Source: a virus. Taken from it: a DNA stretch of 42,965 bases. Location: the IMG/VR virus record IMGVR_UViG_3300048597_000619, positions 1 through 42,965 of that record; one strand, written 5' to 3'. Positions 3,775 through 33,297 of this stretch are shown piece by piece; position 1 is the stretch's first letter, and every line of letters begins with the position of its first letter. A program made the translations under genes and the position numbers. The notes under the pieces were generated by a model that did no database searches, was not told the DNA's origin, and worked only from the letters and a program-made list of their open reading frames with translations.

Positions 3775-3992
3775 GGCTTGGGCTCCTGCGGGCGGGACCG
3801 GGAGAACCAGAACTGCAGGATTTGCAGCACGCCCGCGGTTGACACGGCCAGCAGCGCCGCGAGCGTGTCCTTCCAGTCGATCGGCGTCTCGACGCGGCCG
3901 GTCAGGAACAGTCCCAGCGTCGTGAAGTACCCCACAAGGAACACGACGGACAGCACGACCTGCGCGACGGCGACGGTGCGTTCGGTGTTCAT
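3771..3992 (-). CDS. Holin candidate (two transmembrane segments)
   Basis: This 73-residue protein starts ATGA over the endolysin stop. It has two hydrophobic segments (VAQVVLSVVFLVGYFTTLGLFL and LAALLAVSTAGVLQILQFWF) and a short basic/Pro tail. Size, topology and position beside endolysin and spanins fit a class II holin that would permeabilise the inner membrane. Two other small membrane proteins lie upstream of endolysin, so the true holin is not proven. Confidence 0.65.
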   Translation of the reverse strand: MNTERTVAVAQVVLSVVFLVGYFTTLGLFLTGRVETPIDWKDTLAALLAVSTAGVLQILQFWFSRSRPQEPKP

Positions 3993-4474
3993 GCTTCGTT
4001 ACTCGAGGCGGGCTGGCTGTTGGACACGAGCACCGGCATCGGACCGGCGGCCGGCTCACCGGGCGGCCAGCGGTACGCCAGCACGCGGGACCGATCGAAC
4101 GGCGCGATGCTGACGGCGTTGCCTTGGTTCCCGCCCAGCACCATCAGCCGGCCGCGCTCGTCGTCACCGACCACGAACCCGACGTGCCCGCCGCCCGTGC
4201 GCTCAAACACGACGATGCAGCCGAGCGTCGGGAGGATCAGCGGCGTGCCGTAGGCGGCCCACGAGCGGGCGCGATACCACTCCCGCACGACCGGCAGGCC
4301 AGACTCGATCAGGCAGGCGGCGACGAGAGTGCCGCACCACGGCGTTTCGTCGTCTGACCACCACGCCTTGAGGCGCGACAGCCAGCGGGTGATCGTCGGT
4401 TCGTGCCGCGGGCCGGGGATCTCGCGCAGCCCGACGTGCTTGCGGGCCTCGATCAGCCAGCGCGGTTCGCTCAC
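3989..4474 (-). CDS. Endolysin, CHAP/NlpC-P60-like (TIGR02594 type)
   Basis: This 161-residue protein starts at GTG overlapping the previous stop. The motif TPWCGTLVAACL puts a catalytic Cys at residue 47; GGGHVGFVVG supplies His 97, and LGGNQGNAVSI supplies a polar residue near 116. Cys-His-Asn order with this spacing is typical of the TIGR02594 cysteine peptidase/amidase family used as phage endolysins. It should cleave peptidoglycan cross-links or the amide bond. No signal peptide is visible, so release depends on the holin. The last 25 residues are a flexible Pro/Ser tail. Confidence 0.8.
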   Translation of the reverse strand: MSEPRWLIEARKHVGLREIPGPRHEPTITRWLSRLKAWWSDDETPWCGTLVAACLIESGLPVVREWYRARSWAAYGTPLILPTLGCIVVFERTGGGHVGFVVGDDERGRLMVLGGNQGNAVSIAPFDRSRVLAYRWPPGEPAAGPMPVLVSNSQPASSNEA

Positions 4475-4764
4475 AACGGCCGATCCTGCTTGGTCTTCAG
4501 GTCGACTTCGATCCGCCTGAGCATGTCCTTGATCTCGCGCACGTCCTCGCGGTAGTCCTGCCGGCGCACGTACTCGCTCGGAACGACCTGCTCGAGCGCG
4601 GCCAGGCGGGCGCCCATCCGCTCCTGCTCTTTCTGCAGCAGACCGACCTGGAACCACAGCGCGCCGCTCATGAACACGACCGCGCCGAGCGCGATCAGGT
4701 CGCCCATGCTCAGCGGGCCGACGCGGAATTCGGGCTGGCGGTCGTCGTTCACGGGGACTCTCAC
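4471..4764 (-). CDS. Membrane-anchored coiled-coil protein, XhlA-like
   Basis: This 97-residue protein starts at GTG inside the previous stop (GTGA). It has one hydrophobic segment (GDLIALGAVVFMSGALWF, about 21-38) followed by a long charged helix (LLQKEQERMGARLAALEQVV and later EIKDMLRRIEVDLK). This resembles XhlA-type lysis accessory proteins but with the membrane segment at the N-terminal side. It may be an antiholin or a holin partner; this is inferred from topology and position only. Confidence 0.5.
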   Translation of the reverse strand: MRVPVNDDRQPEFRVGPLSMGDLIALGAVVFMSGALWFQVGLLQKEQERMGARLAALEQVVPSEYVRRQDYREDVREIKDMLRRIEVDLKTKQDRPL

Positions 4765-4907
4765 TTCTTCGCCGGCCGACTTCCCGCCGAAGGCCGTCCG
4801 CCACCGTCACCGCTGCGCCGTTGCACGCTGCGCCGGTGGATGAACCACGCGCCGCCGGCAATCACGACGCCAGCGAGGATATATGCCGCCGCCACTTCGA
4901 TCTGCAT
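4761..4907 (-). CDS. Tiny single-span membrane protein
   Basis: This 48-residue gene has a good Shine-Dalgarno (AGGAG, eight bases before ATG). It has one hydrophobic segment at the N-terminus (AAYILAGVVIAGGAWFI) followed by a basic, Gly/Ser-rich cytoplasmic tail. It is the first gene after the tail-tip protein and may be a holin-class or regulatory lysis peptide. It is too short for a family assignment. Confidence 0.5.
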   Translation of the reverse strand: MQIEVAAAYILAGVVIAGGAWFIHRRSVQRRSGDGGGRPSAGSRPAKK

Positions 4908-19724: not shown

Positions 19725-20612
19725 TCAAACCGAATCATTGGGAATCAACCGGGGGGATTTAATCCCCGCGTGCGGTGGCGCTCGGTCTATAGCGCGAACC
19801 GCCCCAAGATCTAGGCCGGCCCCGGTTACCGCGTCGCCCTTCAAGCTGTTGCATGACCTGCACGCGCATCGCACGTTGGCTCGGCTATGCGTGCCGCCAC
19901 GCGCCAGCGCAACCACATGGTCCAGCGTCGGTGCGCGTCCGTTGCGCACGTTGCCCATGAGCCTCCGAGGTGTCGCTCGGCCGCATAGGTAGCAGCGCCA
20001 GCCATCCGCCTCGAACACCTCTAGCGCGGTGAAATGCTCGCCGCCCTTGAGGCGAGCCCGTCTGCGGTGCCTCCCCGATCGCTTCACCGCTCGGTTCATG
20101 CACTTAGTCGAGCAGTATTTCGCCGCGCCGTGCCGGTAGGGCAGTTGCGCCCCGCATTCACGACATGGCGTTACTACCGACAGCGAGAAGTACGCGGCTC
20201 GCTTCTTTGCGGCCACCACTCGATTCGCCCTGATCCGCGCGCATGACGCAGAGCACGTCTTGCGGGACGGCTGATTAGACGCGAACGGCCGCTCACACTC
20301 TTCGCAGCGACCGAACCACACGCGACAGGATCGCCCCTCTCTCTGCTCGCGCGCGGCAGCCATCCTGACCAGAACCGCACAGGTCCTGTGCCAACGGCTC
20401 GCCCGCTGCTGCGACCAGAACTCGCCGCCGCACAGTTCGCAGATATGTGCGCGCGGCCGATGCCGCCCGCTCGGCTTCTTGCGCCTGACGACAGATCGCC
20501 GTTGCGCGGGGTTGGGCTTTTTGCAGCCCTCACACAAACTCGGAAGTCTTCCGCGCGTTCCCGACAGGCGTACGACGCCGCAGGCCGCGCACGTATACTC
20601 TCGTGCAGCCAT
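19725..20612 (-). CDS. Zinc-finger HNH endonuclease
   Basis: At 295 residues this protein is much longer than a minimal HNH protein. The N-terminal 160 residues hold at least four paired Cys motifs (CAACG...CEGC, CELCGGEF, CEECERPF, CRECGAQL), i.e. tandem zinc ribbons. The HNH core is at about 208-262 (WRCYLCGRAT, then TLDHVVALARGGTHSRANV and CRSCN). This is the layout of free-standing homing endonucleases. It is wedged between another HNH gene and TerS, so it could be a selfish insertion or a packaging factor. Confidence 0.85.
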   Translation of the reverse strand: MAAREYTCAACGVVRLSGTRGRLPSLCEGCKKPNPAQRRSVVRRKKPSGRHRPRAHICELCGGEFWSQQRASRWHRTCAVLVRMAAAREQREGRSCRVWFGRCEECERPFASNQPSRKTCSASCARIRANRVVAAKKRAAYFSLSVVTPCRECGAQLPYRHGAAKYCSTKCMNRAVKRSGRHRRRARLKGGEHFTALEVFEADGWRCYLCGRATPRRLMGNVRNGRAPTLDHVVALARGGTHSRANVRCACRSCNSLKGDAVTGAGLDLGAVRAIDRAPPHAGIKSPRLIPNDSV

Positions 20613-20689
20613 CTCATCACCCTTTCTGATGGGATCGGTCAGAGGCCGGTCGGCGTGTCAGCGCCTACCGGCTTCGCTTTCTGTGCTCG

Positions 20690-21034
20690 TCACCGCAGCC
20701 CCGCCTGCGCCTCCTCACGCGCCTTCCGTCCGTTGTGACAGGGGCCGCACAGTGCCTGGTGGTTTGCCTCGTCCCAGAACAGGTGCTCATTGCCCCTGTG
20801 CGGGGTGATGTGGTCGACGACGGTGGCACTGGTCACGCGCCCATCAGCCATGCACATCACGCAGAGGGGGTGCGCCCTCAGATACCCGGCCCGGTACTTT
20901 TGCCACTCGTACCCGTAGCCACGCGCCGTCGAACTGTCCATGCCCGCGCGCCAACTGCACGAGGCGACCGTCGCCAGCCGCTGCGGCGCTGACTGAGTCC
21001 GCGCCGGCAGGATTGACAGGCGCGGTCGCGACAT
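20690..21034 (-). CDS. HNH endonuclease next to terminase, HK97 gp74-like
   Basis: This 114-residue protein starts in a TGATG junction with the upstream virion gene. It contains WQKYRAGYLRAHPLCVMCMADG, VDHITPHRGNEHLFWDEANHQALCGPCHNGR: two Cys pairs flanking an HNH core. HNH proteins beside terminase genes (HK97 gp74) are required for efficient DNA cleavage at packaging sites, which fits its position here. Confidence 0.88.
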   Translation of the reverse strand: MSRPRLSILPARTQSAPQRLATVASCSWRAGMDSSTARGYGYEWQKYRAGYLRAHPLCVMCMADGRVTSATVVDHITPHRGNEHLFWDEANHQALCGPCHNGRKAREEAQAGLR

Positions 21035-21537
21035 CAGCGCCCGATCAGCGTCAGCTCGTACGCCTGCGTCGCACCCGACGCGTTGCCCACGCGCAGGATA
21101 TCCGCGGTCGCCGCCGTGACCGCATACCCGGCATCGCCGGGCACGAGCACGATCAGCCCCTTCGGCTGCAGCACGAGCGTGTGGGTGGCCGCGCCGAAGG
21201 CGCTCGCCCATGCGTTCGTCGCGCCGCCCAGCGTCAGGTTGCCCGTGTTGGCGTCGTCGGCCTTGAGGATCAGGCCCATGACCACCGAGAACACGAGCGC
21301 CTGACCGAAGTCGTCGACAAGGGCGCCCGCGAGGTCGAAATCGTCGTTCGTGGCCGTCGTCAGCGACTTCTTGCGCTGGAACAGTTTGTTGGCCTGCCCG
21401 GAGGTCGAGCCGTCCGGCACCGGCCGGCTGTAGACGCGATCCGCGCCGGCCAGCGCCGCCGTGCCGATGTTGCCGGCGACCGCGTTGCTGTACTGCAGGA
21501 TCGCGGCGACCGAGAGGTTCGTGTTCAGGTTCGGCAT
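21034..21537 (-). CDS. Putative virion structural protein
   Basis: This 167-residue protein is Ala/Gly/Thr-rich with alternating hydrophobic strands and no charged clusters. It begins PNLNTNLSVAAILQYSNAVAG and ends TQAYELTLIGR. It sits at the end of the fibre module. It resembles small beta-rich tail or decoration proteins but has no motif that I can name. Confidence 0.5.
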   Translation of the reverse strand: MPNLNTNLSVAAILQYSNAVAGNIGTAALAGADRVYSRPVPDGSTSGQANKLFQRKKSLTTATNDDFDLAGALVDDFGQALVFSVVMGLILKADDANTGNLTLGGATNAWASAFGAATHTLVLQPKGLIVLVPGDAGYAVTAATADILRVGNASGATQAYELTLIGR

Positions 21538-21549
21538 GAGCGACTCCGG

Positions 21550-22026
21550 TTATTTCACTTCGAGCGAGAACTCGGCCTGGTAGGTCTTGCCCGAGCTCGT
21601 GACGATCTGGTTCCGCACGCGGTACACCTGCCCGGCGACGCCGCCCGCCACGGTGACCGTCGTGTCCTCGGCGGTCGCGCCGGGGCCGGTGAACGTCAGC
21701 GCGCTCGAGCCGACCTCGGTCCAGGTGCTCGTGCTGATCGTGTCGACCGCGCTCGTGCCGGGCGCCTCGCTGGTCCATGTCACCGAGCCGTCAGCGACCG
21801 TTCGCGCGGCCGCGGTCGGCCAGTTCGGCTCGACCAGCCCGGACTCGCCCGCGACCGTGGCCTTGAACGCGAACCCGGTGCGCGTGCGGGCGCGGACGTA
21901 GGCGTTCAGCGCGTACACCTGTCCCGGCTGCCAGTAGGTGCGCAGGTAGGCCGACCAGTCGATGCCGAACGGCTTCGTCTCGCCGGCGCGCTTGGCGCGG
22001 GTGCCGAGGTCGAGCGGGTGGTCCAT
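21550..22026 (-). CDS. Putative tail/fibre accessory protein
   Basis: This 158-residue, beta-rich protein has a segment VYALNAYVRARTRTGFAFKA, then EPNWPTAAARTVADGSVTW. That P-x-W-P...V-x-D-G-x-V-x-W pattern occurs in phage tail proteins with a small carbohydrate-binding or Ig-like fold. It lies among fibre genes. Specific function unknown. Confidence 0.55.
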   Translation of the reverse strand: MDHPLDLGTRAKRAGETKPFGIDWSAYLRTYWQPGQVYALNAYVRARTRTGFAFKATVAGESGLVEPNWPTAAARTVADGSVTWTSEAPGTSAVDTISTSTWTEVGSSALTFTGPGATAEDTTVTVAGGVAGQVYRVRNQIVTSSGKTYQAEFSLEVK

Positions 22027-22032
22027 GGCTCC

Positions 22033-23817
22033 TCAGTGCAGTCGGGGCGGCCGCATCAGGCCTTCAAACGCGTCGGTCGCCTGCGTGTCCTGCCGCGGGC
22101 CGGTCGTGATCTGCCGGTCGGTCGTTTCGCTCACGAGCAGCCGGCCGTCGTGCCAGCCGACCACGAACCGACGATCGCGACCGTCGGCAGTGACGACCAG
22201 CATCACGGCCGGGCCGCCGCTGACGATCCAGTCGACCTGGTCGGTGGCGACGGCGACTTCGACGAGGCTGGCGAGCAGCGTTGCGGCGACCGAGAGCGCG
22301 TCGGTGGCGTTGCCGGCCTCGACGAGCTGCGCGACGCGCGCGGCCTGCGCGGTGTACGTGTCGGCGGCGGTCGCGACCTCGGCCACCGCGCGGGCGAAGA
22401 TCGCGGCGGCGCTCACCGTGTCGGCGGCACTGCCGGTCTCGGCCACGTTCACCGTGTGCACCGTAGCACCGGACGCGACCGAGTCGGTGGCGCTCCCAGC
22501 CTCGGCCACGGCGGCGACCAGCGTCGCCACGGCCGAGACGACCTCCGAGGCCGTGCCAGTCTCAGCAACCGCCGCAGCGGCCTGCAGGGTCCGCGACACC
22601 GCATCCGCCGCTGTCCCGGTCTCCGTGACCGTGACGCTGTGCGTCGTCGCGCCGCTGGCGACCTGATCCGTGGCGCTGCCGGCCTCGCTGATCGTGACGG
22701 CGAGCGTCGCGATCGCGGAGACCGTGTCCGCGGCCGTGCCTGCCTCGGCGATGCTGGCGACGGCCGTGTAGGCGGCGCTTGGAGCATCCGCCGCAGCCCC
22801 GGTCTCGGCGACCGAGCGCGGGAACACGCCGGTGGCACTCGGGGTGTCCGTGGCCGCGCCCGCTTCGGCGACTGCGACCGGAGACGCCCGCGCAGCGCTC
22901 GGCGTGTCGGTGGCGGCACCTGTCTCTGTCAGGCTACGCACGAGGGTGGCGATCGCGGACAGCGTGTCGCTGCCAGAGCCCGTCTCGGCCACGCTAACGT
23001 TGTGCGTGCCGCTGCCCCCGACCGGGTCCATGTCGAACACGTCGAAGTCGAACACGTCGTCGTCGAACGGCGCGCCCTGGTCGAGCGCGTCGGTCGCGCT
23101 CGCGCTCTCGGCGATGCTGACGTTGTGGACGGTGCCGCCGCCCGCCGTGCCCTTGATCTCGATCGCGACGATCGAATACTTCTGCCCGCTCGGCGCGGAC
23201 AGACCGACAGTCTTCGTGCCGGCCGTGCCAACGTCGTCGTAGTACGCGGCGTAGGTCGTGTAGCGCGCCGCATCGCGGAAGTAATTCGTTTCCAGCCCGT
23301 TGCCGCTGGTCGGCGTAACGCTGTTGACGGTGCGCCACGTGCGGCTTGCGCCGTCGGTCGCGTTCCAGTCGTTGTTGGCGACCTGTACCGCGCTGTTCAC
23401 CTGCGTGGTTGTGAGGTCCAGCGACGGCGCGCCACTGCTGACGTTCGTCTTGCTGCTCGCGCCAACACCGTCGGAGCCGCGCCATACCTTGACGGACGCG
23501 CCCCAAGCCATGTTGTAGCCGCTGTTGTTGCCCGTCTTTTCGGTCGACACCGACACCGACGAGCCACTCCCCGCCGCGACCGCTGTCATCACTCGCACGT
23601 AGCCGTAATCGCTTACTGCGACGGCCTGCTGCTCGGCAAATGTCAGCCCTGTCGCGGTCGGCGTCAGGACGACGTTGTCGCCTGATGTGTTGTATCCCTC
23701 ACATTGGCCGGTCCAGACGATGACGTCGCCGGCCAGCCACGAGACCGTCACCGACTTCGGTGAAGTCGTCGTGTCAAACGACGTTTTTTGGTCGTCTACG
23801 AGGGTGGGCTTCGGCAT
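22033..23817 (-). CDS. Repetitive fibre/adhesin-like protein
   Basis: This 594-residue protein has three parts. Residues 1-230 are beta-rich, with SVTVSWLAGDVIVWTGQ and a SIVAIEIKG end, like a small lectin-type domain. After an acidic linker (DDDVFDFDVFDMDP, 252-265), thirteen units of about 20 residues run from 273 to 530, each with a V-A-E-T/A-G-x-A-x-D core. The last 65 residues are a compact beta domain. The repeats probably form a rigid rod. No signal peptide is present, so it is likely a virion component rather than secreted. Confidence 0.7.
   Translation of the reverse strand: MPKPTLVDDQKTSFDTTTSPKSVTVSWLAGDVIVWTGQCEGYNTSGDNVVLTPTATGLTFAEQQAVAVSDYGYVRVMTAVAAGSGSSVSVSTEKTGNNSGYNMAWGASVKVWRGSDGVGASSKTNVSSGAPSLDLTTTQVNSAVQVANNDWNATDGASRTWRTVNSVTPTSGNGLETNYFRDAARYTTYAAYYDDVGTAGTKTVGLSAPSGQKYSIVAIEIKGTAGGGTVHNVSIAESASATDALDQGAPFDDDVFDFDVFDMDPVGGSGTHNVSVAETGSGSDTLSAIATLVRSLTETGAATDTPSAARASPVAVAEAGAATDTPSATGVFPRSVAETGAAADAPSAAYTAVASIAEAGTAADTVSAIATLAVTISEAGSATDQVASGATTHSVTVTETGTAADAVSRTLQAAAAVAETGTASEVVSAVATLVAAVAEAGSATDSVASGATVHTVNVAETGSAADTVSAAAIFARAVAEVATAADTYTAQAARVAQLVEAGNATDALSVAATLLASLVEVAVATDQVDWIVSGGPAVMLVVTADGRDRRFVVGWHDGRLLVSETTDRQITTGPRQDTQATDAFEGLMRPPRLH
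22228..23001 (-). repeat. Thirteen-fold 60-base coding repeat
   Basis: Within the 594-residue gene, thirteen consecutive units of 20 (twice 21) residues share V-A-E-T/A-G-[ST]-A-[AT]-D-x-[VP]-S-A. At DNA level the units are diverged but keep the phrase encoding GAGACCG/GAGGCCGG with a 60-base period. This is a degenerate tandem array that may vary in copy number between relatives. Confidence 0.85.
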
Positions 23818-23829
23818 CGCCTCGCCCCC

Positions 23830-24291
23830 TTAATCAATCGTTGCGATCAGCGCCGCCAGTTGTGTGCGGAAGCCCGCCAGCGTCGCCGTATCGAACGTGC
23901 GCTCCACCGTGCGGCCGTTCGCGTCCAGCGTGACCGACAGCAGGTAGCCGCTGCCGTCCTTGGGAAAGTTCGCAACGATCCACGCGCGGGTGTTGTCGAT
24001 GGCGGTCTGCATCGCCGTGAACTCGTTCGCAATGTTCAGCGCGGGATTCGCGACCTGCTCCTGCGCATACGCGGCCAGCCCCTGCACCGCCGCGAGCCGC
24101 GTGAACGTGTCGCGCGCACCGGCGAGGTCGCCGCAGAAGCGAATGATCGACACGCCGCTGATCGGACCGGCCGCAGACAGCGCGTTTAGGTTCGTGGCGG
24201 ACTGCTTCACCGATGCGGCGACGGCGCGCACGCGCTCCCACGCATCCGCCAGCGAGTCCGCTTTCGTGCCGCCTGCGCTCGGGAACGCCAT
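23830..24291 (-). CDS. Hypothetical helical virion-module protein
   Basis: This 153-residue protein is predicted alpha-helical over its first two thirds (SLADAWERVRAVAASVKQSATNL, later NIANEFTAMQTAIDNTRAWIV) and ends in a short beta segment. Such proteins are frequent in phage structural modules next to fibre genes. No signal, membrane segment or catalytic motif. Confidence 0.55.
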   Translation of the reverse strand: MAFPSAGGTKADSLADAWERVRAVAASVKQSATNLNALSAAGPISGVSIIRFCGDLAGARDTFTRLAAVQGLAAYAQEQVANPALNIANEFTAMQTAIDNTRAWIVANFPKDGSGYLLSVTLDANGRTVERTFDTATLAGFRTQLAALIATID

Positions 24292-24292
24292 C

Positions 24293-24538
24293 TCAGTTGG
24301 CCGGGTTCGTCAGCGCCGTCGAGTCGGCCAGCGCCTGCGACACGGCCTGCACGTCCGCCGTCGCCTGTGCGAGCTGCGCCTTCTCGGCGTCCGTCAGCGA
24401 ACCGGCCTGCGCGACTGCCAGCGCGGCCAGCGCCGCGTCGAGCTTCGCCTTCAGCGCCGCCGCATTGGCGACGGCTGCGTCCTTCTGGGTCTTGAGCGTG
24501 ACCACCGAGGCCGAGAGGTCGTCGATCTGCTGGGACAT
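24293..24538 (-). CDS. Small coiled-coil protein
   Basis: This 81-residue protein has start at MSQQIDDLSASVVTLK with AGGA eight bases upstream; a longer upstream frame looks non-coding. It is nearly all heptad-like helix, rich in Ala, Lys, Leu and Gln. It could be a trimeric stalk or a fibre-assembly chaperone, judging only from its position between fibre genes. Confidence 0.6.
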   Translation of the reverse strand: MSQQIDDLSASVVTLKTQKDAAVANAAALKAKLDAALAALAVAQAGSLTDAEKAQLAQATADVQAVSQALADSTALTNPAN

Positions 24539-24585
24539 GGTACGAATCCTTTTCCAGAGGTAGGCGAACAGCCGCACCGATTCGC

Positions 24586-25155
24586 TCACGCGCATCGTGC
24601 GAACGTAATCAGCGGCAGCGTGTCGAACCGCGAAGCCAACGTGACGGCCGAGCGCGGGACGACCGCGTACTCGCCGACCGTCTGCGCTGCGCACGCCGTG
24701 CCCGCAGGCACCGTGCCGATCCGCACGAACGTGAACCCGTCAACGCTCTGCCGCAGCTTGTACGCGCCGGTGTCCGACACCTGCACCGTCGTCGTCAGGC
24801 CCGTCGGCGCACTCGGCGGCGCGACCGGGACCGTGGCGGTCGCCGGCGTGGACTTCGCGGACTCGAGCCCCGCTGCGTCGAGTGCCGTGACGGCGTAGCA
24901 GGGCGTGCCGGCCGGCGCGGTCGTGTCGACGTAGGCCGTGGCAACCGGGATCGTCGCGATCACCGTCTGCGTCGCGCACGTCGCGCCCCGGTAGACCTTG
25001 TTCTGCGCGACCGTGACTGGCGAGCCGTCGGTGCGCGTGGTCGGGTTCGTCCACGTCAGGTTGACCGTGCCCGCCCAGGCCATGCTCACGCAGAAGAACA
25101 GCGCGAGCGTCAGCAGGGCGGCGAGCGCGTGACGGGGGCTCAGGAAGCGCATCAC
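24586..25155 (-). CDS. Secreted protein with signal peptide and FnIII-like domains
   Basis: This 189-residue protein begins with a classical Sec signal (basic start, then ALAALLTLALFFCVSMAWAG, cleavage after AWA near residue 28). The mature part has one or two fibronectin-III-like domains (TVNLTWTNPTTRTDG, later PSAPTGLTTTVQVSD). An exported protein inside a virion gene cluster is unusual: it may act in the periplasm or at the surface, or be a signal-bearing moron. Start GTG at 25155 or ATG at 25152. Confidence 0.7.
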   Translation of the reverse strand: MMRFLSPRHALAALLTLALFFCVSMAWAGTVNLTWTNPTTRTDGSPVTVAQNKVYRGATCATQTVIATIPVATAYVDTTAPAGTPCYAVTALDAAGLESAKSTPATATVPVAPPSAPTGLTTTVQVSDTGAYKLRQSVDGFTFVRIGTVPAGTACAAQTVGEYAVVPRSAVTLASRFDTLPLITFARCA

Positions 25156-26288
25156 ATCTCCAGCCGGCGGGTGAGCATCCAGTTGAACGCGAGCGTCGTA
25201 GCGGCGGCTGTACCACCGACCATGACGTTTGCCCGAGGACCGAGAGCCGTAGTCTGCGACGGCAGGTTCGCGGTCAGTTCGCCGCCCGCGACTGCGCGCG
25301 AGTCGAGCCGGCGCACCGCGTACAGCACACGGGTCGTTGCTGGCATTGCCATGAACGACACTTCGTACACGGCGGTCGCGTTCGGCACCGGGAAGTTCGC
25401 GCCGAGGTCGATTTCCGTCGCCGCCGTCCCGTCACGCGCGCCGACGCGCATCGTCGTCTGACCGGCCGTGCCGATGCCTGCGTAGATCGTGTTGTTCGTG
25501 GCGCTCGGGACCGTCGTGATCGCGGCCGAGGACGACGACATCGCGACCATCGCGCCGCCGGTTGCCGAGGCGGCGGTGATGCGGAACGGTGCATTGAAGA
25601 AGAACCCGGCGCGGCGGGCGACGCTGCCACGGAACCAGTTCAGTTGCGCCGAGCGGACGTCCGAAGAACCCGAGGCCGTCGCGTTCGTGATCTGCGTTGA
25701 GGGTCGGCCCGTAAACTCGTTGCCGTTACCAACAGGCGCGACGGTGGAAAGCGTCGCAGTGTTCGACGTGTTCTGGCCGATCGACAGAACGCCAGTGCCG
25801 GTGCTGGGCAGGATCAGCGCGGAGCGGGCGTCCTGTGTTCGTACGTCATACGTCTGCGAGGCGAGCTGCCAGCGGAGGTTCACGCCGTCATAGATGAGGG
25901 TCACGGCCTGTTGCGGCAGAAGCCAAAGACACTCGCAGCACAGCGCCGAGAAGCGGTTCGCGGCCGTGCTGCTGGCGTCCTCGTTCAGAAGACCGATCAG
26001 GCCCGTCGAGTCGTTCTCGATGATCGCGAGGCGGCCTGCCGCGCCGCCCGCCAGCCCGCCGATGAACGACACCGACGCGGGCTGCGCCTTGATGCGCACC
26101 GCCCGGTTCGGCTGCGCGTCGTTCCAGCCGGTCGGCGACCAGTCGGTCTGGTTGAGCGCGGGCACGGCCGTGATCGACGGCCAGTACCAGTCGGAGACCG
26201 CGTGGTCGTCGTTCCAGTTCGACGTGCGGACCTTCGTCGCGTCCGCGCCCTGCGGCTTCGCGGACGTGAAGGCGTGACGGATGCCCAC
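25152..26288 (-). CDS. Putative tail fibre / receptor-binding protein
   Basis: This 378-residue protein starts at GTG. The opening RHAFTSAKPQGADATKVRTSNWNDDHA is a pattern found at the N-termini of phage tail-fibre and baseplate wedge-like proteins. The remainder is Ala/Thr/Ser-rich beta sequence ending LAFNWMLTRRLEM. It lies immediately upstream of the secreted FnIII protein, whose start overlaps its stop. The receptor-binding role is inferred. Confidence 0.6.
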   Translation of the reverse strand: MGIRHAFTSAKPQGADATKVRTSNWNDDHAVSDWYWPSITAVPALNQTDWSPTGWNDAQPNRAVRIKAQPASVSFIGGLAGGAAGRLAIIENDSTGLIGLLNEDASSTAANRFSALCCECLWLLPQQAVTLIYDGVNLRWQLASQTYDVRTQDARSALILPSTGTGVLSIGQNTSNTATLSTVAPVGNGNEFTGRPSTQITNATASGSSDVRSAQLNWFRGSVARRAGFFFNAPFRITAASATGGAMVAMSSSSAAITTVPSATNNTIYAGIGTAGQTTMRVGARDGTAATEIDLGANFPVPNATAVYEVSFMAMPATTRVLYAVRRLDSRAVAGGELTANLPSQTTALGPRANVMVGGTAAATTLAFNWMLTRRLEM

Positions 26289-26299
26289 GGGTCAGAGGC

Positions 26300-26866
26300 T
26301 CAGACGGACCAGCTACCCGAGACGTTCAGCGTGTCGGCGGAGGCGACGGCCTTGTCGCCACCGGTGAACAGGCCCGCCGAGTACAGGATGCCGGTCGTGC
26401 CGCCCTTGGTGTTCACCGTGGTCACGAACGCGCCCTTTATCGTGTCGGTGCCGTTGATCGTGAAGGCCGCCGCCGCGCTGGTCGCCTTGGAGCCACCGGA
26501 CGCGGCAGAGAACGCCAGAGTCGGGCGGTTCGCGTTCGAGTACACCGTCGATTCGGTCCAGCCCGCGTGCGACGCCATCGTGTCGCCCGCCGCGATTGCC
26601 GAGTAGCCGGTCGAGCCGATCAGGCCGATGTACCAGGCGGCGGTATAGCCCGAGCCGGCGAAGTACTTGTCGAGCAGGTCGTTCTTGCCGACGGTCACCA
26701 CGAGATTTCGAAACGCCTCGCGCCACTTCTCGCGGCCGTAGCGATCGACGCAGATGACGTCGAACGTGAAGAACGGCGCGTCGACGTGCTCCTGCAGGCT
26801 TCCCGGCAGGATCAGCCCTGCACCGACCCCGTCCCGCGCGTTCCCGCGCTCCGTGAACCCGCTCAT
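26300..26866 (-). CDS. Virion structural protein (fibre-associated)
   Basis: This 188-residue protein contains FDVICVDRYGREKWREAFRNLVVTVGKNDLLDKYF near 35-70 and TAAWYIGLIG after it, a combination I recognise from structural proteins of several temperate phages of Gram-negative bacteria. Serine/threonine-rich strands fill the C-terminal half. It begins ATGA over the previous gene's stop. Confidence 0.65.
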   Translation of the reverse strand: MSGFTERGNARDGVGAGLILPGSLQEHVDAPFFTFDVICVDRYGREKWREAFRNLVVTVGKNDLLDKYFAGSGYTAAWYIGLIGSTGYSAIAAGDTMASHAGWTESTVYSNANRPTLAFSAASGGSKATSAAAAFTINGTDTIKGAFVTTVNTKGGTTGILYSAGLFTGGDKAVASADTLNVSGSWSV

Positions 26867-27177
26867 GCGCGCCTCCGGATGATCTCGACGCCGTCGATCG
26901 TCTGCCCTTCGAACGCGTCCCAGAACGCCCCCGCGACCGCACCGTAGGCCGTGCCGTACGCGGCCAGCGCCTCGACGTCGTCGCCGGACGGCGCGGCCGG
27001 CAGCGCGTCGTGCTGCGCGAGCGCCGCCGCGAGCTGCTCGGGGTGGCGCGCCTGCGCGGGGTCGAGTTCCTTCGCGAGCGCAACGGCCACGGGCGTCGGC
27101 AGCGCAAGGCGGATCTCCTGCGCGCCGGCGGCTTCGAGCGCCGCCCGGTAGGCGACGACCTGGTCTCGTGCGGTCAT
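26863..27177 (-). CDS. Small helical hypothetical protein
   Basis: This 104-residue, Ala-rich helical protein starts MTARDQVVAYRAALEAAG. It has an acidic central part and ends DGVEIIRRRA, where its stop overlaps the next start. It may be a tail-fibre assembly protein by position; no motif supports this. Confidence 0.5.
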   Translation of the reverse strand: MTARDQVVAYRAALEAAGAQEIRLALPTPVAVALAKELDPAQARHPEQLAAALAQHDALPAAPSGDDVEALAAYGTAYGAVAGAFWDAFEGQTIDGVEIIRRRA

Positions 27178-27193
27178 GGGACTCCTCGGATCG

Positions 27194-27613
27194 TCAGCGC
27201 CGCGCCCACACGGGCGGCGAGGTGGGAACGCCGACCGGCGGCGTCTCGAACGAATACGTGTCGCTGATCGAACTCTCGACGCCAGCGGCGTTGCGCGCGG
27301 CGACCTGCACGTTCCAGCGCAAGCCCGGCACGAGCGCGAACGCCTTGGACGTGGTCGCCGTATTCGGCGGCTGCTGGACGCCGTTGACGTACCAGACCCA
27401 CTCGACCGCGACTGACTCGCCGGCCGGCTGCGTGCAGGTCAGCGTCGCGCCGTAGGGCGACAGGCCGGACACGGGCACCGACGGCCACGTCGGCTCGGCG
27501 GGTGGCTCGGCATCGTTGCCGGTGGCCGGCGGCGGGCCAGGCGCGCGGTCGAGGTCGTCGAAATAGGTCGCGTCGGCCGCGTCGGCCAGCGCATCGAACA
27601 GCGTGTCGGCCAC
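27194..27613 (-). CDS. FnIII-like domain protein
   Basis: This 139-residue protein starts at GTG. After an acidic and Pro-rich N-terminus it has one fibronectin-III/Ig-like domain (YGATLTCTQPAGESVAVEW, then TATTSKAFALVPGLRWNVQVAARNAAG), with the Trp and Tyr-type strand residues typical of the fold. Such domains in phage proteins bind surface sugars or act as spacers. Confidence 0.6.
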   Translation of the reverse strand: MADTLFDALADAADATYFDDLDRAPGPPPATGNDAEPPAEPTWPSVPVSGLSPYGATLTCTQPAGESVAVEWVWYVNGVQQPPNTATTSKAFALVPGLRWNVQVAARNAAGVESSISDTYSFETPPVGVPTSPPVWARR

Positions 27614-27616
27614 GGG

Positions 27617-29050
27617 CTAGCGCCAGGTCGGCGCCAGCCGGCGCATCGTCGCGAGGTCGGGCGTGCCCGGCTTGTGCAACGTGAACCAGACCTTGTCACC
27701 GGCGACCAGCGAGCCGGTCGCGATTATCTGGTCGACGTACCCGCTCGCGTCCGTCGTGACGCCCTGGATGCACTGGTCGGGCGCCGCGGCGGCCGTCGTC
27801 GGGCCGGCAGCGCCGCGCCAGACGCACAGCGTCAGCCCGGTCAGGTTCGGCTGCACGACGCCGTCGAGGTCGATCAGGCGCGTGCGGACGTACGGCGCGA
27901 GCACCGTGCCGGCGCCGCCGGGTCCGTACTGCCGGCCCACCGCGCCCCAGCCGGTGCCGTCGCCGGAGTTCGCCTGCACGTCGAATTCGATCGTCGGCGG
28001 GCCGGACCACGAGGCGTCATCGTAAAGCGCGAGGTCGGCGATCGTCGGGCCGCCGCCCACGTTCAGCGCGCGGACCTGGTCGCCCGTGGCGAGGTCCGGC
28101 AGCGCCGTGAACCGATACCCGGCGGTGGCGTGCACCGACGCGAGGTCGACGTAGGCCCTGCCGGTCGGCGGGTTCACCGTGACCGCGATCGTGCTGGTGC
28201 CGTACGCGTTCGACGCCCGGACCGAGCGGGCGCCGTAGCGCGCCGCGCCGAGCGGGAACGACGCAACCGTCCAGCTCGTGTCGGACACGCGGGTCGCGCT
28301 GATCGACACGCTCGTCGCGCCGTCCAGCAGCGCGAACGTCGTCCCGGCCACCAGCGCCGTGCCCGTGATCGTGCACGCGGCCCCGGCCGTCACGACGTTG
28401 TCGCCGTCGACCGTCGACAGCGACGGCGGGGCGATGTAGTCGCGCACGAGGTAGTCGAGCAGCGACTGGCCGTTCGTGCCGCCGTTCGACGCACCCTGCT
28501 GCCAGAGGCCACACCGGCCGCTGGTGATTCGGCTGCCGGACGCGTCTGACGCGGACAGCGCCAGCGCGCCGTCGAGGAACACGTCGAGCGTCACCGGATT
28601 CGTGCCGCGCAGGTCGACGCGCAGCTCGTGCGTGCTGCCTGCGCTGAACGCGGACAGCCCGACGTTCTCCCAGACCTGCTCGTAGCTGCCGGAGACGTAC
28701 TTGCGGATCTGCAGTTCGGTGCCGGTCGTGTTCGTCTTGATCAGGTAGTACGTCTGGACCGTCGGATCCATCCGCACCAGCACCGCGATCTCGGAGCCGC
28801 CGCCGGTCGTGTTCCGGTGGATGAAGTTCGCGACCAGCGTGAGGTCGGCCGGCACCGTCGCGGCGTTGTGGTACAGCCCGCCCGTGCCGTTCGCCTGCTT
28901 CAGCGCGCCAGCGCCGTCCAGCGCGAGGCCCGCGTTGCCCCAGAACGTGCCGGTCGGGTTCTTCGCCCACGCCCCGCCGGTCGGCGGCGAGCGCGATTCC
29001 AGCGTAACGTCCGCGGTCCCGACGAAACTGTCGACGATCAGGTCGGCCAC
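27617..29050 (-). CDS. Adhesin-like virion protein: LamG/concanavalin-like plus IPT-like domains
   Basis: This 477-residue protein starts at GTG and ends TAG. Residues 1-190 resemble a concanavalin/LamG-type jelly roll (TLVANFIHRNTTGGGSEIAVLVRM, later HELRVDLRGTNPVTLDVFLDG). About 200-290 looks like an IPT/TIG-type Ig domain (ITGTALVAGTTFALLDGATSV), followed by beta-rich domains. The same jelly-roll design recurs inside the 1046-residue protein just upstream, so the two probably act together in binding surface glycans. Confidence 0.65.
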   Translation of the reverse strand: MADLIVDSFVGTADVTLESRSPPTGGAWAKNPTGTFWGNAGLALDGAGALKQANGTGGLYHNAATVPADLTLVANFIHRNTTGGGSEIAVLVRMDPTVQTYYLIKTNTTGTELQIRKYVSGSYEQVWENVGLSAFSAGSTHELRVDLRGTNPVTLDVFLDGALALSASDASGSRITSGRCGLWQQGASNGGTNGQSLLDYLVRDYIAPPSLSTVDGDNVVTAGAACTITGTALVAGTTFALLDGATSVSISATRVSDTSWTVASFPLGAARYGARSVRASNAYGTSTIAVTVNPPTGRAYVDLASVHATAGYRFTALPDLATGDQVRALNVGGGPTIADLALYDDASWSGPPTIEFDVQANSGDGTGWGAVGRQYGPGGAGTVLAPYVRTRLIDLDGVVQPNLTGLTLCVWRGAAGPTTAAAAPDQCIQGVTTDASGYVDQIIATGSLVAGDKVWFTLHKPGTPDLATMRRLAPTWR

Positions 29051-29051
29051 G

Positions 29052-32000
29052 TCAGCCGCCCGCCAGCGTGCGCAGCGCCTGGCGCTTCGCCTCGAACGTG
29101 TCGGTGTTCAGCGGCCAGCGCCACTCGCCGTTCGCGTCGCGCGTCGCGTTCTCGAGCGCGCCGCCCGGCAGCACCTCGTCCAAGATCGCGTTCGCGGCCG
29201 AGGCGTTCACCGCCTTCGCGAGCGCGTGGTACTTCATGTCGTTCATGCCGTCGGCAAGGAACGCCAGCCGCAGCGTCGGGAACGGGCCGTCGATCCCCGG
29301 CACGCCGCTCGTGGGCCACATCCGGTGCCACGAGTGGACGAACAGCACGCCGTCGTAGTTGGTGCCGCCGTTGTAGGCACCGCGGCCGGTGAAGTGCGTG
29401 CCGTAGTCCGGCCCCATCACGAGCTTGCGGCCCGCGTCGTTGATGCGGAACGGCTTGTCGCCCCAGTTGCGCATCGTCGTGAACAGGTCGACGCCGGCGC
29501 CGGATTCCTCCGGGCTGTGGTACTTCTCGGCGAACAGCGTCGACTGCCGCAGCTCCGGGCCGTTCACGTAGAACGGGCCGGGGAACGCGGTCGTGTTCGT
29601 GTCGAGGTAGGTCGTGCCGTCGTCAGCGAGCAGGCCGCAGCCGGGCACGCCGGACGTGATGTCCGCGCTGCCCGTCGTGTCATACCCGCTCGCGACCCAT
29701 TCCTTGTTCACGGTCGCGAGCAGGAACGGACGCGTGCCGGGGTACGCCTCGACGTAGTCGAAGACGTGCAGTTGGATGAACGCGGGGCTCGGCATCGTGT
29801 ACGCGACGAACGCGCCGATGGTCGAGCGGACACCGTTGACGTACTTGACGAGCTGCACGCCGTTCGACGCGTACTCGACGCCGTAGGCGTTGAACGTCGC
29901 GCCGTTGCCGGAGCAGCGCAGGAAGATCGCGCCCTTGCGGCTGGTCGTGAGCCCGCCGGCCGCCGCCGTCGCGCGCTGGTTCCGGCAGTAGGTGTTCGAC
30001 CAGACCGCATCGTTGCGGTACGCGATGTTCCACTCGCCGTTCACGCGCACGCGTGCCTGGTTCGAGACGATCTGCAGGCCCGTGCCGCTGCGGCCGGGCA
30101 GCACGACGTTCGTCCACTTGCCGCCGTCGCTGATCGGGTTCTGGTTCGCGAGCGTCAGGTAGTTGTCGAACGTAGTGCCCATGCCGGGCTCGGCATTGCG
30201 CTCCTTGTAGTACATCGTCACGTAGTTCGCGAAGCCCGCGTCCGGGAAGTTCAGCAGGTCCGTCGGGAAGTGGTTGTGACCGTGGTAGATGTAGAACCCC
30301 GGCCGGTCGCCCTTCACGTAGGACCACGGCGTCACGCGCAGCGCCGCCGCCTCGCTCTCGCCGTTCGTCCGCGCGCCCGGCGGCTGGTTGTACGGCAGCC
30401 CTTTCACGCCGCCGTTCGCGAGCCACCACGCGTTCGCGGTCGCGTCGCCGCCGGCGTGGTACTGGAATCCGCGGACGCCGAAGTTGCCGTTCGCCGCGGC
30501 GCCGTCTTTCAGGTGCGCGCAGTTGCCCGCGATGAAGATCGGGCAATCCTTGATCGAGCCCGTGTCGGCCTTCACCCGATCGATCAGGTACTGCATGTAG
30601 AAGTACATGTCATACCCAGGCTCGTCGATCAGGTAGAGCATCTTCAGGATGCTCGGCGCCTGCGTGTTCGCGTTCGTGTACGCGGTCGACAGCCCGTCGA
30701 GCCACGTCTGCGACAGGATCGGACCGAGGTAGCCGCGCACCGGCTGGCCCGTCGCCCACGGCGTGTACGCCGCGAAGCCGGTCGTGTTCGCCGGGATCGT
30801 GAACGTGTCCGCGCCCGTGACCGTGATCGAGTACAGCGTGTTGTTCAGCGTCGTATACGGCGCCGGGCAGTTGCGCACCTTCCACTGGAACCCGGTCGAC
30901 TTGCCGTGGTCGCCCCAGGTGCGGATCGTCGTCGGGTTGCCGGGCGTGATGTCGCGGATCGCGCGCCAGTTGTAGCCGTCCTGCCGGCCCTCGGAGTCGT
31001 CGGTGAACGCGCCATAGCCGAATGCGCCGAAGATGCCGAGGACGTGCAGGCGGGCGCCCACGCCCTCGTCCTGCCCCGCGTAGCCGCGGGCGTTGGTCAT
31101 CTCCGTGCCGTTCAGGAACTCGTTCGTCTCGGTGTTGACCGCGTACGTCTGGTCGGTGAACAGCACGTCCACGCCGAAGTCGTGCGCCATCTGCCGGTAC
31201 AGCTTGCGCTGCTCGGCGACGAACGCGGCGTGCGCGGTGATCGAGTTGTTCCAATCGATGTAGCGCGCGACGCCGAACTGCCACGATTCGCCGTTCGCCC
31301 ACGTCCACGCCTGGTTCGCGGTCGGCAGCGTCAGCGTGCCCACGTCGACCCGGACCGGCACGGTGGTGAGTGCAGCGCCCGCTTTCTTGATCGTGATCGT
31401 GCCGCGGTACGTGCCCGGCGTCAGGCCGGTACGGACGTGCACCGACAGCATCACGAGCTGGCTACGCCCGACGCCGATGTCGAACCGGCCCTCGTTGGCG
31501 GTGCCGTAGTTCACGACCTCGTGCGGGATCAGGATGTCCGGCACGTACTTGAACGCGAGCGGCCTGTCGACGAACAGCGTGCCGGCGTTGGCCACGCCCG
31601 ACGCGTTGTGCGGCCGGCGGATGTAGCTCGGCCCGCCCTTCTCGTCCCAGTTGCCGCCGCCGGAGTTGTAGAAGTCGATGTTGCCGTTGCCGTACGTGGA
31701 CGCGGCGCGGAACTGCGCGTAGTTCGCGACGTAGAGCTTGATGTCGCGGCGCGATCGCGGCGCCCACGCGGCATCGTACGAGCGGAAGACGTTGTTGCCG
31801 GTCACCACGCCGCGCGCCGGACTCGTGATCGTCTCCGACCCGCCGGAGCGCGTCAGGGTGTCGAGTTCGACCGACAGGCCGGACACGCCGACCAGCGACT
31901 CGAGGTTGAGGTAGACGCGGCCCGTCTCGTTTCGGGCCAGCTTGAGGTAGACGGTGTCCTGACCGGCGTCGTTGATCCACGCCGAACTGGCCGACGGCGT

Positions 32001-32192
32001 CAGGCCGGGGGCGAGCATCACTGAGGTCGAGGCGCCGCGCGCCTTCGGGGTCGCCTCGCGCTCGACCCGCATCGACGTGAACGCCCAGACGCTGTGAAGC
32101 CCGCCGACCCCGTACTTGGAGGGGTCGGAGTAGTACCGACCGTCGGCCTGCGCCGTGCCCGTCCAGTTTTTCGTCTGAACGGTCTTCGGCAC
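29052..32192 (-). CDS. Glycoside-hydrolase-like virion protein (DUF4091/GH123-like)
   Basis: This 1046-residue protein is the first gene after the late terminators. It starts at GTG with GGAG ten bases upstream. Residues about 60-290 form a beta-sandwich ending TPGTYRGTITIKKAGA...VPVRVDVGTLTLP, the lead-in typical of GH123/DUF4091 enzymes. Residues 300-640 look like a TIM barrel with LIDEPGYDMYFYMQYL (Asp 523-Glu 524-Pro 525). About 660-880 is a LamG-like insert. The end (LADGMNDMKYHALAKAV) resembles the DUF4091 tail. I infer a capsule- or LPS-cleaving depolymerase; no signal peptide is present. The fold call is by eye. Confidence 0.6.
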   Translation of the reverse strand: MPKTVQTKNWTGTAQADGRYYSDPSKYGVGGLHSVWAFTSMRVEREATPKARGASTSVMLAPGLTPSASSAWINDAGQDTVYLKLARNETGRVYLNLESLVGVSGLSVELDTLTRSGGSETITSPARGVVTGNNVFRSYDAAWAPRSRRDIKLYVANYAQFRAASTYGNGNIDFYNSGGGNWDEKGGPSYIRRPHNASGVANAGTLFVDRPLAFKYVPDILIPHEVVNYGTANEGRFDIGVGRSQLVMLSVHVRTGLTPGTYRGTITIKKAGAALTTVPVRVDVGTLTLPTANQAWTWANGESWQFGVARYIDWNNSITAHAAFVAEQRKLYRQMAHDFGVDVLFTDQTYAVNTETNEFLNGTEMTNARGYAGQDEGVGARLHVLGIFGAFGYGAFTDDSEGRQDGYNWRAIRDITPGNPTTIRTWGDHGKSTGFQWKVRNCPAPYTTLNNTLYSITVTGADTFTIPANTTGFAAYTPWATGQPVRGYLGPILSQTWLDGLSTAYTNANTQAPSILKMLYLIDEPGYDMYFYMQYLIDRVKADTGSIKDCPIFIAGNCAHLKDGAAANGNFGVRGFQYHAGGDATANAWWLANGGVKGLPYNQPPGARTNGESEAAALRVTPWSYVKGDRPGFYIYHGHNHFPTDLLNFPDAGFANYVTMYYKERNAEPGMGTTFDNYLTLANQNPISDGGKWTNVVLPGRSGTGLQIVSNQARVRVNGEWNIAYRNDAVWSNTYCRNQRATAAAGGLTTSRKGAIFLRCSGNGATFNAYGVEYASNGVQLVKYVNGVRSTIGAFVAYTMPSPAFIQLHVFDYVEAYPGTRPFLLATVNKEWVASGYDTTGSADITSGVPGCGLLADDGTTYLDTNTTAFPGPFYVNGPELRQSTLFAEKYHSPEESGAGVDLFTTMRNWGDKPFRINDAGRKLVMGPDYGTHFTGRGAYNGGTNYDGVLFVHSWHRMWPTSGVPGIDGPFPTLRLAFLADGMNDMKYHALAKAVNASAANAILDEVLPGGALENATRDANGEWRWPLNTDTFEAKRQALRTLAGG

Positions 32193-32245: not shown

Positions 32246-32290
32246 AAGTGGGGGATCGACAGGGAGTCACATCGACGGACGCAGAAACGC

Positions 32291-32315
32291 AAAAGCCCGG
32301 CGCAGAGCCGGGCTT
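32291..32315 (-). terminator. Rho-independent terminator 1 before late genes
   Basis: A 9-bp stem (AAGCCCGGC at 32293-32301 against 32307-32315) with a 5-base loop is followed on the minus strand by TTGCGTTT. It begins about 25 bases after the expected start point of the promoter at 32345-32372. Confidence 0.8.
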
Positions 32316-32344
32316 CGGGGACGGACACGTATCCGTGATTCGTC

Positions 32345-32372
32345 AAGATACGGATTTTGCGGCCCGCGTCAA
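32345..32372 (-). promoter_or_regulatory. Putative late promoter (pR'-like)
   Basis: Minus-strand -35 TTGACG (32367-32372) and -10 TATCTT (32345-32350) are 16 bases apart, overlapping the last codons of the Q-position gene. Transcription would start near 32338 and meet two terminators within 130 bases. An inverted repeat ATCCGT...ACGGAT spans the start region, and the 10-mer CCGTATCTTG at 32344-32353 also occurs at the cro and rightward early promoters. Confidence 0.65.
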
Positions 32373-32875
32373 GCGGCATCGTCCTCCCGCAGCCGGCGCT
32401 TGATGTGCCCCGTCGCGATCGAGCACCACACGTCGAGCCGCTGCGCGAGCCGGACCCACGCCGGCTCGGCGTGCCGGCGCCAGCCCTCCGGCGTGAAACC
32501 GCCGAGCTCGTGCATCCCGTCGACCAGCAGGACTGCCTGATACACCGCCTGCCGACGGGTCTGCAGCCACTCGATCAGCACGGTCGCGTGCGCGAGATCA
32601 GCCAGCCAGCGGCGGCCGTCGACGCGGTCCGGCCAGCGGTGCTCAACGTGAAGCCGCGCCGCCTCGTTCAGCAGGCACGCTCGCAGGCCGGCGCCGCAAC
32701 TGTCGTCGAGCGCATAGCGGAACCGGAAAGCGTACTCGTGACGCGTCGGCAGCCCGGCACAGGCGAACGCCGCGGCCTCGGGGGTCCACTCGGGGATGCC
32801 GCCGCGCCCCTGCATCGACTTCGTGACGTCGATGCCGCGCTGCGTCAGAAGACCGGCAATCCCCTCTGTGTTCAC
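32369..32875 (-). CDS. Hypothetical protein in the position of the Q antiterminator
   Basis: This 168-residue protein starts at GTG over the VRR-NUC stop (GTGA) and is the last gene of the leftward early operon. It has a helical centre (LNEAARLHVEHRWPD, then LADLAHATVLIEWLQTRRQ) and a C-terminal helix pair ending ATGHIKRRLREDD. I do not recognise its family. Because a promoter and two terminators follow directly, as in lambda Q-pR'-tR', an antitermination role is inferred from context alone. Confidence 0.55.
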   Translation of the reverse strand: MNTEGIAGLLTQRGIDVTKSMQGRGGIPEWTPEAAAFACAGLPTRHEYAFRFRYALDDSCGAGLRACLLNEAARLHVEHRWPDRVDGRRWLADLAHATVLIEWLQTRRQAVYQAVLLVDGMHELGGFTPEGWRRHAEPAWVRLAQRLDVWCSIATGHIKRRLREDDAA

Positions 32876-33297
32876 CGGTCGATCTCCCACGTCGCCCAGT
32901 CGATCTGCGGGTCCGGCGAGTAGCCGATGTGCACCGGGTGCCCGGTGTCGGCGAGGTAGCGCGTGATCGCGGCGAACGCCTCGTCGGCGCCGAACGCGAC
33001 CGCCGTCTGCCAGCCCAGCCACCGCAGCTTTGCCAGGTACTCGCGCTGCGACGGCTGCAGTCGCCCGCCCTGCGCCTTCAACTCGAGCCCGAGTCCGTGA
33101 AACCGACCAGCCGGGATCGGCACGATCAGGTCCGGAACGCCGGCCAGCACGCCCATGCGCTTGAGCTTCGCGCCCTCGGCGGGGTGACGGCTGCCACCGT
33201 TGGGAACTGCAAAAGCGAAGTCCGACAGCGGGTGCCCGCGCCACTTCGCGACGTGCAGTTTCGCCATCAGCGCCATCTGCTCGGCGTCCTCACTCAT
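32872..33297 (-). CDS. VRR-NUC domain nuclease
   Basis: This 141-residue protein shows VPNGGSRHPAEGAKLKRMG, then GVPDLIVPIPAGRFHGLGLELKAQ: Asp 56, Glu 72 and Lys 74 form the PD-(D/E)XK catalytic set, with Gln 81/84 following. This is the stand-alone VRR-NUC family, predicted to cut Holliday junctions or similar structures, and may serve as the phage resolvase. It starts with ATG overlapping the preceding amber-interrupted gene by eight bases. Confidence 0.9.
   Translation of the reverse strand: MSEDAEQMALMAKLHVAKWRGHPLSDFAFAVPNGGSRHPAEGAKLKRMGVLAGVPDLIVPIPAGRFHGLGLELKAQGGRLQPSQREYLAKLRWLGWQTAVAFGADEAFAAITRYLADTGHPVHIGYSPDPQIDWATWEIDR

Follow-up and report, generated by a model that had tools for sequence, protein, structure and literature searches.

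A phage late-gene protein of the GH123/DUF4091 glycosidase superfamily that is probably a virion-borne fibre or spike

Most known phage depolymerases are beta-helix or SGNH proteins. Tailspike depolymerases with a TIM barrel ("transglycosidase domain") have been reported for Acinetobacter phages (PMC11823257), and the depolymerases of prophages were reported to be rarer than expected and difficult to predict (PMC13123978). The closest described counterparts of the protein analysed here are the GH123/DUF4091 enzymes BvGH123 (5L7R), NgaCa (8K2F) and NgaLy, which combine a sandwich, a barrel, a DUF4091 tail and a DE motif (PMC11087588). In this superfamily, the DE pair serves the substrate-assisted retaining hydrolysis of beta-N-acetylgalactosaminides, and nine residues are conserved across the characterised DUF4091 enzymes (PMC11087588). 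Judged by sequence homology, the present protein has the same parts and the same motif at about 9-13% identity to the known structures, but it differs from those enzymes in having two inserts and no signal peptide, in the replacement of three of the nine residues, and in being encoded by a phage late gene.

The window, which is the whole stretch of DNA analysed, is the 42,965-bp IMG/VR virus record IMGVR_UViG_3300048597_000619. It carries the genes of a temperate tailed phage (integrase, HK97-type terminase, portal, protease, capsid and tape measure), and its terminase is nearest, among named phages, to those of Burkholderia and Bordetella phages. The 1046-residue ORF described in the initial annotation is present on the minus strand (Table 1), and it is a real coding gene because its GC content by codon position is 0.59/0.50/0.96. 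Its product is probably a secreted cellular GH123/DUF4091 glycosidase that has been turned into a late, glycan-cleaving fibre or spike likely borne on the virion. The proposal of a virion depolymerase made in the initial annotation is strengthened by a phage-tail module in the barrel and by a homologue in the structural gene cluster of another virus, and virion location and catalysis are still what we infer.

Table 1. Positions of the ORF, its predicted parts and its surroundings (window coordinates unless another record is named)
Feature	Position	Strand	Basis or remark
Whole ORF	29052..32192	-	1046 aa, GTG start at 32192, TGA stop
N-terminal beta-sandwich, residues 80-297, GH123_N-like	31302..31955	-	profiles, Pfam, BvGH123 match
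Barrel part one, residues 298-410	30963..31301	-	near-relative profile
E1_FCCH-like phage-tail module in barrel, residues 408-476	30765..30971	-	Pfam, wedge alignment
Barrel part two, residues 494-640	30273..30713	-	hhalign, MAFFT, near-relative profile, L172 match
Asp523-Glu524, predicted catalytic pair	30621..30626	-	MAFFT, hhalign, near-relative profile
Large insert, residues 641-885	29538..30272	-	absent from relatives; LamG/ConA-like by eye
DUF4091-like tail, residues 940-1046	29055..29375	-	family members, both profiles
Sigma-70-like promoter TTGACG-16-TATCTT	32345..32372	-	0.0 expected in shuffles
Terminator-like leader hairpin with T-run, downstream of the promoter and upstream of the start codon	32292..32316	-	stable hairpin
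Next ORF, 477 aa, fibre-like by eye	27617..29050	-	starts 1 nt after the end of the 1046-aa ORF
L182 ORF, 712 aa	4762-6900 of IMGVR_UViG_3300050821_002138		same subfamily as the window protein

Judged from its sequence, the window protein belongs to the GH123/DUF4091 beta-N-acetylgalactosaminidase superfamily. Its best Pfam family was GH123_N (E 0.044) and its sole PDB sequence matches were to BvGH123 (E 0.022); the curated Pfam cut-offs were not reached (12 bits against 22 for GH123_N, and no match for GH123_cat). A hand-made alignment of the DUF4091 tail, scanned over GTDB genomes, yielded 80 family members, with which both ends of the protein align in the correct order (best 49 bits). The protein scored 60.4 bits with a family profile made from 38 of these 80, and no score among 1000 shuffles exceeded 7.8; the match of that profile to sandwich residues 213-297 amounted to 36 bits. 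Comparison with the family by hhalign gave a probability of 95.8 and placed Asp523-Glu524-Pro525 on the family DEP unprompted. Nearer relatives came from later whole-genome searches, and a profile of four of them gave 121.4 bits over three collinear stretches, namely the sandwich (80-392, 94 bits alone), the barrel (506-635) and the DUF4091 tail (940-1040), both inserts falling in stretches that this profile leaves uncovered. The L172 match spans residues 516-642, and, of the relatives tested, two (L172 and L146) themselves pass the Pfam GH123_cat cut-off. Homology extends across sandwich, barrel and tail, with the Asp-Glu pair at the family position, as is expected of a superfamily member. 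Landmarks are the ARNE motif (86-89), D219 and PGTYRGTITI (259-268) in the sandwich, the subfamily signature GYAGQDEGVG (370-379) in the first barrel part, and DGVLF (947-951), GPFPTLRL (969-976) and DGMNDMKY (981-988) in the tail. The family guess of the initial annotation is backed by the profile, hhalign and BLASTP searches, as are its beta-sandwich by homology and its DUF4091-like tail by both profiles. Exact 8-residue patterns from the protein found no match in IMG/VR or GTDB genomes, and one match to a DUF4091-motif pattern (L084) was a chance match.

The closest cellular proteins constitute an uncharacterised secreted bacterial subfamily (L176, L177, L178, L179 and L180, with L172 more distant), which has a collinear core and a GYxGPGxGxG-type signature in common with the window protein and matches it by BLASTP with at most 82 bits, plus a collinear tail match. 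All four of the near relatives tested (L172, L176, L177 and L178) have an N-terminal hydrophobic stretch of the signal-peptide type, whereas hydropathy revealed none in the window protein, as had been noted in the initial annotation. The relatives also lack both of its insertions, which lie at about residues 408-476 and 641-885.

The first insert, overlooked in the initial annotation, gives the protein a module in common with phage tail proteins. It matches Pfam PF16190 at E 0.006, and its best-scoring phage matches are Rhizobium phage baseplate wedge proteins; alignment with the gp8-like wedge segment gave a local score of 85, whereas 2000 shuffles scored no higher than 46, and the wedge protein examined scores 37.8 bits for PF16190, above the cut-off. 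A weak tblastn match of the window protein to a Rhizobium phage is this module and not an enzyme homologue. The second insert, which had been described as LamG-like, does exist as a large insertion, but its LamG identity is unproven, as neither family nor structure searches could assign it: Pfam matched nothing in its main part, and PHROG, the PDB and tblastn against phages gave nothing relevant. Matches of this insert to antibodies were due to chance, and its homology to the next ORF is unsupported, with 68 of 1000 shuffles scoring as high.

In all four MAFFT modes, Asp523 and Glu524 fall on the DE of the family for 49 of 54 sequences, which bears out, at the level of alignment, the predicted barrel with Asp523-Glu524(-Pro525). 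The full set of nine residues conserved in DUF4091 enzymes is not retained: D95, D327, E328 and R478 are kept and G427 is probably kept, while Trp115, Tyr466 and Trp431 are replaced by Met248, Val952 and Tyr636, respectively, and the equivalent of Tyr392 is ambiguous. D219 and R975, both of which are among the residues tying the sandwich to the DUF4091 pillar, are kept. Because the DE pair is kept but three of the nine residues are changed and one is ambiguous, an active depolymerase seems most likely, with a catalytically dead glycan-binding fibre as its main rival.

An AlphaFold model of the window protein was built on the GH123/DUF4091 family alignment; much of the sandwich and the tail helix had a pLDDT above 90 and the DE strand reached about 75-85, the barrel beyond that strand was of low-to-moderate confidence, and over half of the model was below 50. 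Prediction from the single sequence gave a pLDDT of 29. The initial annotation had named a structure without a barrel, or matches only to non-catalytic fibre proteins, as telling against its proposal, and neither was found, but the 22 best PDB fold matches, all of them GH123-superfamily enzymes (E 1e-13, TM about 0.5 by target), were obtained with an alignment-dependent model. No match at E <0.001 was found among the BFVD viral structures, to which the same caveat on model quality applies. We take the model as consistent with the superfamily, not as independent evidence, because the alignment behind it was made of that very family.

The gene lies in a late structural/fibre module, which it leads as the initial annotation had stated, with the next fibre-like ORF 1 nt on and, just upstream, a promoter-like site, the only one in the 1-kb region scanned, and a hairpin. 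The two elements resemble a late promoter whose leader carries a terminator, which would imply antitermination. The 477-aa product of the next ORF has no database match, and the same-strand module continues downstream through HNH, terminase, head and tail genes.

A second viral member (L182) was found by scanning IMG/VR with close cellular relatives as the query. Its gene is located between those for the major head protein and the head-closure protein Hc3; like the window protein, it has no signal peptide, keeps the DE pair and lies within a structural gene cluster. Identity to its closest cellular relatives is 37-44%; the window protein is more distant from them and occupies, in a small tree, a long branch beside a clade of L182 and cellular enzymes. 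Its insert (about 429-470) matches the tail-fibre PHROG phrog_5073 at E 1e-4 and differs from those of the window protein in type and place; the contig has a GC content of 52% and a coat protein different from that of the window. Because the genome is of another type, the two proteins look like separate recruitments or the outcome of an old divergence. As a side observation, the L182 insert looks like a small carbohydrate-binding module.

The route that we favour would have begun with a phage acquiring a secreted cellular GH123/DUF4091 enzyme, which then lost its export signal, gained at least one phage-tail module and became attached to the tail. There it might cleave beta-linked N-acetylhexosamine bonds, most likely of the GalNAc type, in the surface polysaccharide of the host by substrate-assisted retaining catalysis, with Glu524 as the acid/base and Asp523 orienting the acetamido group, and the large insert 641-885 might help in binding or attachment. 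A virion receptor-binding fibre that uses the GH123 scaffold for glycan binding only, its catalysis having been lost, would suit the place of the gene in the fibre module, and the long branch, the lost equivalents of Trp115, Tyr466 and Trp431 and the large inserts adjoining the barrel all speak for it. We nevertheless consider it unlikely, given that Asp523-Glu524 was kept while many other positions changed and that L182 keeps DE and, by eye, most of the other conserved residues.

Less probable still is a late-expressed soluble enzyme or cargo gene product that stays outside the virion and acts on released polysaccharide after lysis. Pfam, PHROG and NCBIfam contain no recognised tail-attachment, trimerisation/C-terminal chaperone or trimeric beta-helix domain matching the window protein, the gene sits right after the late promoter, where lambda-like phages have their lysis genes, and a GH123-type gene of another kind, its product having a signal-like N-terminus, is carried by a viral contig (L086), all of which would fit such an enzyme; the module shared with a phage baseplate wedge protein, the fibre-like genes that directly follow and the L182 homologue amid structural genes point instead to the virion. 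That the resemblance to GH123 is accidental or a product of model bias, with the protein being a beta-rich fibre of the ordinary kind, is highly improbable: the Pfam matches below the cut-offs and the family alignment behind the AlphaFold model might be cited for it, but it is already contradicted by sequence evidence in which the model has no part, namely profile and BLAST scores far above shuffles, three collinear regions and the alignment of both motifs.

With a glycan-cleaving virion protein as the preferred reading, a wider one comes into view, that the GH123/DUF4091 clan is an unrecognised source of virion depolymerases, from one secreted subfamily of which unrelated phages took enzymes, dropped the signal and placed a different tail module in the barrel. 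We regard this as evenly balanced between being right and being wrong; virion-borne beta-N-acetylhexosaminidases would, under it, open surface polysaccharide during adsorption. Searches by tblastn with the window protein, a DUF4091 consensus and the L182 protein found no phage relative in 50,697 phage records, and the window protein had no match on plasmids by the same method. No homologue of it was present in 35 TerL-related viral records and phages, and pattern scans of IMG/VR for the sandwich and the signature returned no relatives. Against PHROG, the window protein had no match beyond noise, three tested relatives had none, and L182 matched through its insert only. The only "phage" record with a clear DUF4091 match, MT836844.1 (L167, "Bacteriophage sp."), is not a phage, since its SusD-like, GH78-like, GH20-like and DUF4091 genes make it by content a Bacteroides-type polysaccharide-utilisation locus. 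On a 178,858-bp viral contig, L086:6420-8258 encodes a protein that narrowly passes the Pfam cut-off for GH123_cat and begins with a signal-like stretch; this gene, viral or misassigned, is of a different, secreted type.

As far as pattern-based viral scans and literature searches reach, the latter having found no paper on a phage GH123 or DUF4091 protein, neither the clan nor its cellular source subfamily nor the module insertions seem to have been described for phages before. The window protein, with its putative role as a tail depolymerase, and the Acinetobacter phage tailspikes are both barrel-type phage proteins, but tblastn with the window, DUF4091 consensus and L182 proteins detected no relation between them. 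The unusual fold class once suggested accordingly narrows to an unusual enzyme clan, as TIM-barrel depolymerases are already known from Acinetobacter phages (PMC11823257). Occurring in two unrelated viruses amid structural genes, a clan of glycosidases whose structures are solved and whose mechanism is known would extend the depolymerases by a class that can be searched for; membership would suggest beta-GalNAc-type glycans as the substrate, and the case would show how secreted cellular enzymes, once stripped of the export signal and fitted with tail modules, can become parts of the virion.

Several other parts of the window deserve mention. The promoter and terminator-like hairpin ahead of the first late gene (32285-32372) are arranged like lambda pR'/tR', and the 11.6-kb fibre-like module that separates the late promoter from the HNH-terminase genes (20612-32192, minus strand), most products of which have no known family, occupies the place where lambda-like phages keep their lysis genes. 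Within it, a 594-aa ORF (22033-23817, minus strand) consists largely of imperfect repeats of the VAEAGSATDTVSA type and has no PHROG or Pfam match. The C-terminal part of an ORF at 3989-4861 (minus strand), which probably begins further downstream than the listed TTG, resembles endolysin/baseplate lysozyme families (phrog_1259 and phrog_9589). Shortly before the late promoter lies a resolvase/endonuclease-like gene (32872-33297, minus strand; phrog_824 and phrog_5702).
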